A stretch of DNA of 22,903 nt from IMG/VR virus record IMGVR_UViG_3300025543_000233, positions 1 through 22,903 of that record, one strand, 5' to 3'. Shown here one piece after another: positions 1,361 through 11,613 of this stretch. The position numbers were made by a program, and so were the translations under genes. Numbering within the stretch: position 1 is the first letter of the stretch; every line of letters begins with the position of its first letter. The notes below the pieces were generated by a model. It was not told where the DNA came from. It ran no database searches and saw only the letters and a program-made list of their open reading frames with translations. The DNA comes from a virus.

Positions 1361-1750
1361 TTAGTATGTCCAAATAACATTTGGTGGTTTAGTTCCCCCC
1401 ATATCAGTTCCATCTGAATCAACGTGTATAAAGTTTTTGTTGCCATCAATTCCAATTCTGTTAAATCCTGATTTAAGCAAGGCATCAACAATAATGAATC
1501 TTGTAGATGAACCGACTGCTGCAATATCTGCTGCTTTTCCAACAAGATGGGAAGAGTTTTTACTTGCTTTATATCCTCTATCCAAAAGATCTTGAAGATA
1601 ATTTTGAGTACGATAACCTGAAGTAATTTTGAAAGGTATGTTTGCAATTTCTCGTGCCTTTTCTAATTTTAATAAAAAATCTTTGCACATATTAACACCA
1701 CTACCTTTGTGGTCAGGCGAAGAAAATTCATCTAACGTAAAGTATTTCAT
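1361..1750 (-). CDS. Endolysin, M15-type peptidase
   Basis: A 129-residue zinc peptidase of the Peptidase_M15 (D,D-/L,D-carboxypeptidase-like) type that would cut peptide cross-links of peptidoglycan at lysis. The expected zinc ligands are visible: His68 and Asp75 in SSHLVGKAADI and His109 in FIHVD. The S-G-Y-R-T segment (44-48) is the typical substrate-side motif. The length is that of a minimal single-domain enzyme with no cell-wall binding domain and no signal peptide, so export depends on the neighbouring holin. Its ATG overlaps the stop of the upstream 59-residue gene (ATGA at 1747-1750). Confidence 0.88.
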   Translation of the reverse strand: MKYFTLDEFSSPDHKGSGVNMCKDFLLKLEKAREIANIPFKITSGYRTQNYLQDLLDRGYKASKNSSHLVGKAADIAAVGSSTRFIIVDALLKSGFNRIGIDGNKNFIHVDSDGTDMGGTKPPNVIWTY

Positions 1751-1926
1751 TTTTTAATCTTTTCAATTTCTTGCTTTATATCACTAACTACTTCATTAAA
1801 CTTATCTTCTAAAGCATCAGGTATACCATCTTTATCTTTATCGGTAAAAAGTCCATAAATAGTTAAAGCCATCATTATGGCAGTTAAAAACATTATTACT
1901 GAAATTATAATTATAAAAGTTTCCAT
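1747..1926 (-). CDS. Small membrane protein with DxDxDG calcium-type loop (59 aa)
   Basis: A 59-residue protein with an N-terminal hydrophobic helix (residues 3-27). It is followed directly by the loop DKDKDGIPD (29-37), which fits the D-x-D-x-D-G-x-x-D calcium-binding pattern of thrombospondin type 3/dockerin-like repeats, and then an acidic and lysine-rich helix. The anchor probably places the loop just outside the membrane. Start and stop are interlocked with neighbours: it begins two bases after the CDGSH-like peptide and ends in an ATGA overlap with the endolysin. A role in lysis or divalent-cation sensing is only a guess. Confidence 0.7.
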   Translation of the reverse strand: METFIIIISVIMFLTAIMMALTIYGLFTDKDKDGIPDALEDKFNEVVSDIKQEIEKIKK

Positions 1927-1928
1927 AT

Positions 1929-2009
1929 TTATTTATTTAAATGGCTACCATCACAGTAACCTTCTGGGTTATTTGTGCATCCACACTCGCATTTAGGTTT
2001 ATTTTCCAT
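1929..2009 (-). CDS. 26-residue CDGSH-like cysteine/histidine peptide
   Basis: A 26-residue reading frame with Cys7-x-Cys9, Thr12, Pro15 and then Cys19-Asp-Gly-Ser-His23. This closely follows the CDGSH iron-sulfur signature (C-x-C-x2-[S/T]-x3-P-x-C-D-G-[S/A/T]-H), with one additional residue between the second and third Cys, an earlier Pro and an extra Cys11. Three Cys and one His are the ligands of 2Fe-2S clusters in the family; zinc binding is an alternative. The ATG lies inside the end of the upstream gene (stop at 1999) and the stop is two bases before the next ATG, so the frame fits the operon exactly. It may be one of the shortest proteins with this signature. Confidence 0.65.
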   Translation of the reverse strand: MENKPKCECGCTNNPEGYCDGSHLNK

Positions 2010-2403
2010 TTCTATTGTTTTTATCGTCAAAGTCCATTGCTGCCTTAAGGATTATTTTGTCCATCATATTATCTTGATTTTGCAGCATTTCTCTTTGTAA
2101 GTTAATTACCATTTCTTCTAATCTATCTTTTGCATCTACAAGCATTTGTATTTGATGGTCTTTTTTTTCTAATGTTGCTTTTAATGCATTTACATCGTCT
2201 GGTCTTGTTCCACTTATAGCAGAAATTAAAACAGGTATTGAAGCAGCAATTGATCCAATTAACATTAGCACGATCTCTTTGTTAGATTCTAAAACAGGAA
2301 ACTGTACAAAAGTTATTATTATTCCAACTATAAACAGAAATACAAAAAGACTTCCTGCATAGCTACGTATCTCTTTTGCTACTCCGTTTTTAGGTAACAT
2401 CAT
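1999..2403 (-). CDS. Two-span membrane protein with coiled coil, possible holin or spanin-like
   Basis: A 134-residue protein with two hydrophobic segments (about residues 17-35 and 43-64) joined by a short polar turn, then a long charged helix rich in Glu, Lys, Gln and Met (about 72-125). A helical hairpin with a cytoplasmic or periplasmic coiled coil is common among phage lysis accessory proteins, but no named family is evident. It starts at ATGATG, where the first ATG overlaps the TGA of the upstream two-span protein. The final codons overlap the start of the CDGSH-like peptide. With the 3TM holin downstream, the phage may have more than one holin-like protein. Confidence 0.65.
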   Translation of the reverse strand: MMLPKNGVAKEIRSYAGSLFVFLFIVGIIITFVQFPVLESNKEIVLMLIGSIAASIPVLISAISGTRPDDVNALKATLEKKDHQIQMLVDAKDRLEEMVINLQREMLQNQDNMMDKIILKAAMDFDDKNNRNGK

Positions 2404-10244: not shown

Positions 10245-10607
10245 TTAGTTTGCTGCTTGACACGCTGCACAATCGTTATATAATGTTACAGCACTAAAAT
10301 GATGACCGTGTGCGTTTTGGTCTTGGCTTAATACGGTATAACAACCATCGTGGTTATTGTGATCAGCATTTATATAATATACATTGCCTATTACTAATTG
10401 TGTAGAACCGTAAAAGTGCTTTTTTTGGCTATGTCCACACTTTTGTACTCTGTAACCGTATTCTCCTGCACTTGGTGTTTCTATTGTTGCTGTTACATTT
10501 CCTACGCCTTGTGCTTGGAAGCTACCATCGCAACATTCTATAGAATATGTATCATCTTTACATAAGCAACCTCTACGACCTGATTGTGGACTTGGTATTC
10601 TACTCAT
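10245..10607 (-). CDS. Cysteine/histidine-rich small structural-region protein
   Basis: A 120-residue protein with eight Cys and several His. It starts MSRIPSPQSGRRGCLCKDDT and continues Y-S-I-E-C-C-D-G-S-F-Q-A-Q-G. A second region contains C-G-H-S-Q-K-K-H-F-Y-G-S and H-N-N-H-D-G-C-Y-T-V-L, with a terminal C-A-A-C. The G-R-x-G-C-L-C-x-D-x-T-Y-S-x-x-C-C-D-G-S segment recurs in structural proteins of marine Bacteroidetes and related phages. Several of these residues could coordinate a metal, or form disulfides in a virion surface protein. It is encoded between the protease and the scaffold, with one base to the protease gene, so a head role is likely but unproved. Confidence 0.65.
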   Translation of the reverse strand: MSRIPSPQSGRRGCLCKDDTYSIECCDGSFQAQGVGNVTATIETPSAGEYGYRVQKCGHSQKKHFYGSTQLVIGNVYYINADHNNHDGCYTVLSQDQNAHGHHFSAVTLYNDCAACQAAN

Positions 10608-10608
10608 A

Positions 10609-11613
10609 TTATTTTATTGGTACGCAATTAGGTACTTTTTTACCGTTTTTCATTTTAAACCCTATCATTTCATAACCACTATAACAAGGTTTTTTTAATT
10701 CTTCTTCTATTAAATCAAGTTCTTTTAGTTTAGCACCTGCCCAACGTAAACCAGCTTTACCACCCCACAATAAATAAGATATAGTACCACACGCTTTACT
10801 ATCACTTTCATCGTAATCTTCTTGCGCCCTACTTAAATAGCTAAACATCCTTTTAATTGTTTCAGTTGTTATTGGTTTCCCTTGTGCTAATTGTTGCGCT
10901 CTTACTTTTCCTACTTGTGTTGCACACTTGTTGTTCACCTTTTCGTTTAATTCAATACCTCTTTTAGCATTATTTTTTACACCACTTGGATAATCAGAAT
11001 AAGATTCTAAATTTTCTTCTTTTAGTATATGCTTTAATTCATCAACTAATTCGTTAGCCATTTCCTCCTGTTCAGACATCTGATCTTTTACAGGTTCGTT
11101 AGGTCTTTGTAATTTATCAGCAAAGTAACCTTCTATACTAAATCCTTTTACTTCACCATCTTTTACTTTTTTCCAAACATCATCGTTATTAACTTTCATA
11201 GATACCATCCAAGTACCAATAGGTACGTTTAAATCGTACATTCTACTTTTATCTTGTTCACTTTCTACTATCCAACTTTCTACAGCAGTTAAACCTTTAA
11301 GTTCTAATTGGTGTTCTAATGTAGAGTTGTTTTGGTTTCCTTTTATAAAAAATAATTCACTTGCTTTACGTACAGTTGCTTGACTAAAGTAGATATAATA
11401 TTCTTGTTCGCCATTTTTACGATAGATAGGTTTGTTAGGTATTAAGGCTGCACCCATAAGGATACGTTTTTCTTTATCTACTTCTGCAAGTTTAAACTCT
11501 TGGTTTTTAAGTGCTATAAAGTTTTCTTCTATTGCTGGGTTTTCTACTACTGATATTGCTTCAATTCCAGAAACCTCATCGTTTTCATCTATAAAAAGTT
11601 CTACTATGTCCAT
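10609..11613 (-). CDS. XkdF-like prohead protease fused to a helical domain and Cys tail
   Basis: A 334-residue protein with three parts. The N-terminal region (about 1-180) has the outline of the XkdF/prohead protease family: L-M-G-A-A-L-I-P-N-K-P-I-Y-R, a loop with E-H-Q-L-E, V-E-S-W-I-V-E-S and G-T-W-M-V-S-M-K-V...V-K-G-F-S-I-E-G-Y-F, the last being the usual end of the core, with S/H residues as likely catalytic. A middle helical part (about 205-300) contains Y-P-S-G-V-K-N-N-A-K-R-G-I-E-L-N and V-G-K-V-R-A-Q-Q-L-A-Q-G-K-P-I...W-G-G-K-A-G-L-R-W-A, a module I have seen in other phage proteins. The C-terminus is G-Y-E-M-I-G-F-K-M-K-N-G-K-K-V-P-N-C-V-P. It probably matures the prohead. Confidence 0.7.
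   Translation of the reverse strand: MDIVELFIDENDEVSGIEAISVVENPAIEENFIALKNQEFKLAEVDKEKRILMGAALIPNKPIYRKNGEQEYYIYFSQATVRKASELFFIKGNQNNSTLEHQLELKGLTAVESWIVESEQDKSRMYDLNVPIGTWMVSMKVNNDDVWKKVKDGEVKGFSIEGYFADKLQRPNEPVKDQMSEQEEMANELVDELKHILKEENLESYSDYPSGVKNNAKRGIELNEKVNNKCATQVGKVRAQQLAQGKPITTETIKRMFSYLSRAQEDYDESDSKACGTISYLLWGGKAGLRWAGAKLKELDLIEEELKKPCYSGYEMIGFKMKNGKKVPNCVPIK

Follow-up and report, generated by a model that had tools for sequence, protein, structure and literature searches.

One of the closest known systems to the phage peptide described here is the CISD/NEET group of proteins (PF09360), which includes 3tbm RsCISD, 3tbn MmCISD, 3tbo PcCISD, 6avj CISD3 and mitoNEET. CDGSH domains share the consensus C-X-C-X2-(S/T)-X3-P-X-C-D-G-(S/A/T)-H, and they were initially annotated as zinc fingers (PMC5859297). 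In CISDs, the residues that hold the cluster or shape its site are C2, C4, (S/T)7, P11, C13, D14, G15, (S/T/A)16 and H17, and a beta-sandwich together with paired modules has been called required for CDGSH proteins (PMC3174974). PcCISD, at 53 residues, is the smallest of the solved CISDs described (PMC3174974).

Another close system is found in other phages, which carry CDGSH micropeptides and fusions of canonical spacing, such as MKKCTCGKSNSQPTCDGSHNKKSS, KOW-CDGSH and WYL_2-CDGSH. These resemble the peptide described here in occurring either free-standing (24–50 aa) or as a terminal tag and in having the same ligands, but they differ in their x8 spacing and in the presence of the lid Pro. 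The KOW-CDGSH form is seen in L381, L373, L390 and similar loci as 71-aa phage proteins in which a KOW-like stretch at the N-terminus is combined with a canonical CDGSH module at the C-terminus; one of these proteins scored 40.5 bits against PF09360. A literature search found no description of CDGSH proteins of phages.

The window analysed here is the whole 22,903-nucleotide stretch of the viral record IMGVR_UViG_3300025543_000233. The portal protein of the window phage has its nearest GenBank phage counterparts in Nonlabens phages P12024S and P12024L (39.7% identity), so that the host is likely to be a marine flavobacterium. The original prediction, which was made from the letters of the window, described a 26-residue CDGSH-like reading frame with one extra residue and an additional Cys, interlocked with its neighbours at both ends, and the sequence bears this out (Table 1). 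The motif reads C7-x-C9-x2-T12-x2-P15-x3-C19-D-G-S-H23, with Cys11 as the additional Cys. The gene starts inside the 134-aa gene, whose stop codon occupies 2001-1999, so that the two overlap by 11 nt, and its own stop lies 2 nt ahead of the ATG (1926) of the 59-aa gene. The flanking genes had been taken for lysis-cassette genes; those that libraries name as lysis genes, the M15 endolysin and the phrog_3427 holin, lie further downstream, and the 134-aa upstream neighbour was named as a holin by no library.

Table 1. Coordinates of the micropeptide gene, its module and its neighbours in the window
Feature	Position	Strand	Basis or remark
CDGSH-like micropeptide gene, 26 aa, MENKPKCECGCTNNPEGYCDGSHLNK	1929..2009	minus	ATG 2009-2007, TAA 1931-1929
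CDGSH-like module C7-E-C9-G-C-T12-N-N-P-E-G17-Y-C19-D-G-S-H23	1941..1991	minus	conservation among relatives
Proposed metal/cluster ligands	C7 1991-1989, C9 1985-1983, C19 1955-1953, H23 1943-1941	minus	
Upstream partner gene, 134 aa, two predicted TM segments and charged tail	1999..2403	minus	unnamed by any library
Downstream small membrane protein, 59 aa, one TM	1747..1926	minus	phrog_27828, E 1.6e-5
M15 peptidase endolysin, 129 aa	1361..1750	minus	PF08291 E 4.7e-10; phrog_894 endolysin E 1.5e-21
Holin-like protein, 138 aa	862..1278	minus	phrog_3427 holin, E 1.4e-11

The micropeptide of the window has no match in Pfam, PHROG or NCBIfam, and scans for Rfam families, tRNAs, promoters and terminators found nothing that explains the stretch. 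The 59-aa membrane protein (1747-1926) contains DKDKDGIPD, a Ca-loop-like motif, and the cassette of locus L177 includes a 94-aa protein with the Ca-loop-like DINGDGKAD. Elsewhere in the window, a 120-aa protein (10245-10607) contains CLCKDDTYSIECCDGSF, which looks like the motif (C-x-C ... CCDGSF) but has no His, and the protein has no Pfam or PHROG match. The XkdF-type prohead protease of the window (10609-11613; PF14550, E 8.3e-17) is without a CDGSH-like module.

Several comparisons connect the micropeptide to CDGSH proteins. When the PDB was searched with a profile built from 27 members of the phage family, with hits accepted to E 10, all eight matches were CDGSH proteins (best 3tbm, E 0.005), and an hhalign comparison with aligned canonical CDGSH proteins of phages gave 95.5% with E 1.6e-8. 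Ten sequences were scanned against Pfam, nine of them free-standing members and the tenth a 75-residue piece taken from a fused member; zf-CDGSH aligned to seven of the nine at the expected position, with E values between 5.8e-4 and 0.21, and the PF09360 cut-off of 29.5 bits was reached by no member tested (best 20.5 bits, with no match for the window peptide). Proteins of the WYL_2 type carry the longer loop in L399 and L423 and the canonical loop in L281 and L295. These proteins are 52–58% identical outside the module, their homology persists with the module masked (E down to 2e-33), and the module occupies the same C-terminal place. Because homologous WYL_2 carriers hold either version, the extra loop residue looks like an indel in a homologous module. 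As judged from this short module, the phage family shares ancestry with CISDs, and the profile search, the hhalign comparison and the WYL_2 carriers together uphold the CDGSH-like identity first proposed for the motif, the cofactor itself being putative.

The phage module keeps the ligand order C-x-C ... C-D-G-[ST]-H, the [ST] after C-x-C-G, and the D, G and [STA] of the signature. Unlike in CISDs, the stretch from the second to the third Cys is one residue longer, and the lid Pro is replaced by a Gly that is followed by a variable residue. The phage peptides are also without the hydrophobic Phi1, which pairs modules in solved CISDs, the Phi12 pairing surface is not kept in the family, and there is no N-strand, P motif or beta-sandwich dimerisation module, for which 26 aa would be too short. 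In size, the phage peptides span 22–50 aa compared to 53 aa in PcCISD. Because these tested features are missing, the micropeptide falls outside the CISD definition; it is nevertheless a relative of CISDs, and its mode of action is probably like that of the CISD binding loop.

The family to which the micropeptide belongs, described by the pattern C-x-C-G-x-[ST]-x4-G-x-C-D-G-[ST]-H, is large and phage-borne. Its Tyr form, C-x-C-G-x6-G-Y-C-D-G-x-H, occurs in at least 119 stretches among 2.9 million viral contigs, in which the reversed Tyr-form motif had no match (0) and a control pattern with a loop one residue longer had one. Of the Tyr-form matches listed, 117 are ORFs of 24–44 aa counted from the nearest ATG; in three of these (L240, L266 and L268) the module is part of a longer open frame, a 109-aa protein without a Pfam match, where it is preceded by a domain that resembles DUF397. 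Among 144 distinct proteins with [ST]6 and Gly11, 109 have 50 aa or fewer, the shortest having 22 aa, a length seen for example in L398 (MAQCVCGKTKDENGNCDGSHNS). The family consists mostly of free-standing peptides of 22–50 residues, with at most one match per record in the 26 records searched whole, and small members have a median of six residues ahead of the motif and three behind. In a subgroup of members of 38–43 aa (L161, L164, L165, L168, L172, L173, L188, L200, L229, L245, L253, L260 and L265), the C-terminal tail is conserved as LFDMNNLPFPYL or a close variant.

A tblastn search with the window peptide found no relative in 50,697 GenBank phage records, a search that distant copies could escape; in its positive control, a 26-aa query found a 65% identical relative. 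Two further tblastn searches, with consensus-like queries taken from no actual locus, found nothing, either in plasmids (26-aa query) or in phages (28-aa query).

Position by position, the C, C, G, G, C, D and H of the module are invariant or near-invariant. Gly4, Cys, Asp, Gly15 and His were fixed in the search patterns and are uninformative in the pattern-chosen set, and for this reason their conservation was judged from the neighbour-selected set described below. Two positions that were free in the gathering patterns are strongly constrained, position 6 being S/T in 117 and position 16 S/T/A in 118 of 122 distinct motifs. When the patterns left Gly11 and Tyr12 free, Gly11 was present in 67 of the 75 open matches, and position 12 varied, with Leu, Asn, Phe and His among the residues found. 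Tyr precedes the third Cys in 77 of 109 small members, with Asn, Leu, His, Thr or others elsewhere, while the residue before the first Cys (Phi1) is hydrophobic in just eight of the 109 and is mostly Lys, Gln or Pro. Cys11 of the window peptide is kept in close relatives only, and Asn, Lys, Gln or Tyr is found elsewhere.

The neighbour-selected set consists of 80 loci gathered by means of the 134-aa neighbour alone, which means that the motif played no part in their selection. The micropeptide is present in 50 of them, 48 with the strict motif and two (L033 and L034) with one shared variant, CKCGYTNNAEGYCDSSH, which reads CDSSH instead of CDGSH and retains all four ligands. The D and G are conserved in this set, with this one change of G to Ser, and the Cys, Cys, Cys and His are kept in all 23 distinct cores. 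Of the 30 loci without the micropeptide, one belongs to a contig that ends at the 134-aa gene; in the other 29, neither a copy nor a remnant nor a loose-motif match was seen, and in most of them the usual next gene directly follows the 134-aa gene. The stop codon of the gene upstream is no more than 14 nt away from the micropeptide start in 91 of 93 loci.

The comparison of synonymous and non-synonymous change that the original prediction had proposed was made on the 23 distinct 51-nt cores, which gave pN 0.116 and pS 0.745 (ratio 0.156), against pN/pS values of 1.60 and 1.33 in the other two sense frames. One antisense frame gave 0.32, as expected for a frame whose third positions face codon third positions. 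Since the reading frame is conserved in relatives and has a low pN/pS, and since the reversed-motif control is empty, the sequence comparisons indicate that it is a real gene under purifying selection and not a product of chance, in agreement with the earlier view that chance was unlikely. The Cys and His residues, whose loss had been named as counting against the prediction, are kept in all copies seen in relatives, and none of these copies had a broken frame, the 29 loci being simply without the gene. The sequence evidence also shows the gene to be optional and mobile.

We infer that the micropeptide is a free-standing minimal CDGSH-type metal-binding module, with a probability of about 0.7 for this explanation as a whole, including its putative metal binding, cofactor, late expression and docking. 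Such a module would descend from, or share ancestry with, the 17-residue CDGSH binding loop, without the surrounding beta-sandwich. C7, C9, C19 and H23 would hold one cofactor, most likely [2Fe-2S] and otherwise Zn2+, and through translational coupling inside the lysis operon the peptide would probably be made late in infection. It may serve as an accessory, interchangeable module, used alone or as a terminal tag, for example on the XkdF-type prohead protease, whose metal centre would dock onto a phage or host partner, the peptide itself presumably being no lysis protein. Docking on a partner is suggested because phages carry the module alone or as a terminal tag. Poor AlphaFold models, with pLDDT of 60 and 43, were obtained for a member of 43 aa and a fused member of 109 aa.

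With regard to the cofactor, [2Fe-2S] is cautiously preferred over Zn2+ because all CISD site residues but P11 are kept, though the sandwich and Phi1 are missing. It is a real if lesser possibility that the loop instead binds structural Zn2+ through its Cys3His set, as a tiny zinc knuckle for nucleic acid or protein with no Fe-S cluster. Cys3His sets commonly bind Zn2+, many members are Lys-rich near the motif, and a naked loop would leave a [2Fe-2S] cluster exposed, more so than in CISDs because the lid Pro and the hydrophobic Phi1 are missing. The first annotation of CDGSH domains as zinc fingers also speaks for zinc (PMC5859297). However, the conserved [ST]6, D14, G15 and [STA]16 are the residues that shape the CISD [2Fe-2S] site, the median net charge of members is +1, which is little for a nucleic-acid binder, and the homologous canonical domains with solved structures bind iron-sulfur. 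As a tentative proposal, held with some doubt, phages, many of them marine, may encode a large family of peptides of 22–28 residues that each hold a [2Fe-2S] cluster (Cys3His) without a beta-sandwich. Such peptides would act as plug-in modules for redox or metal functions, on their own or as tags on virion-assembly proteins.

The genomic context of the module bears on whether it acts in lysis. In 77 of the 102 distinct loci listed, an M15 endolysin or a member of the 138-aa holin cluster lies within 2.5 kb, with at least five gene orders; this is no figure for the whole family, because only Tyr-pattern and neighbour-selected loci were counted. In one group of loci, the holin is a GTA-type 3-TM protein. 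In other phages, the module gene adjoins terminase subunits (L178), GroEL (L181) or PhoH (L247), and the longer-loop module ends XkdF-type Peptidase_S78_2 prohead proteases in L427, L468, L416 and L435. In the 29-kb record G022, the protease carries the module and there is no micropeptide gene besides. Canonical-loop CDGSH genes were found near the M15/holin genes of this group in one of 112 viral loci, a comparison that is confounded by phage lineage. Thus the Tyr clade is often found in lysis cassettes, and the wider family is found elsewhere too.

Like holins, spanins and pinholins, the micropeptide has a lysis-cassette position and, presumably, is co-expressed with the cassette; unlike them, it is soluble and Cys-rich, with no TM segment in a TM-window scan and no lipobox in its sequence. 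Its proximity to M15 and holin genes, and the interlocking of its start and stop with lysis genes, would fit a redox or metal sensor that times lysis through the neighbouring membrane proteins. This is nevertheless improbable, since other members have terminase, GroEL or PhoH genes as neighbours or form part of a prohead protease, 29 related loci are without the micropeptide, and the enrichment partly reflects the shared ancestry of one phage group. The suggestion in the original prediction that the peptide could influence lysis timing, membrane state or metal availability is unsupported, as the module also occurs in non-lysis settings and many similar phages are without it although the rest of their cassette is present. 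The idea of a lysis-specific module was dropped in view of the terminase, GroEL and PhoH neighbours and the fusions to prohead protease and WYL_2 proteins. A docking or plug-in role is more likely than that of a lysis timer.

It is very improbable that the reading frame merely passes ribosomes between its flanking genes and encodes an inert peptide. Most loci have tight overlaps at either end of the frame, which would suit such a coupling spacer, but strong purifying selection on specific residues (pN/pS 0.16) contradicts it, the peptide recurs at other junctions and in unrelated operons, and the flanking genes are mostly joined directly in relatives without the micropeptide. A chance ORF with a look-alike motif, which its 26 codons and the missing Pfam and PHROG matches of the window peptide might suggest, is refuted by the conservation, the pattern controls and the profile matches.

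The minimal metal-binding module favoured here belongs to a widespread family of phage peptides of 22–50 residues that is apparently undescribed. If the cofactor is bound by the peptide alone, few natural metal-cluster proteins would be smaller, and the same would be true among natural iron-sulfur proteins if peptides of 22–28 residues hold [2Fe-2S]. Free-standing peptides with the CISD ligands and site residues would provide a direct test of the minimal protein for a [2Fe-2S] or Zn site, in contrast to CDGSH proteins, for which pairing of modules on a beta-sandwich has been considered necessary (PMC3174974). They would also show that phages carry a mobile metal module that has been overlooked by gene callers and family libraries.
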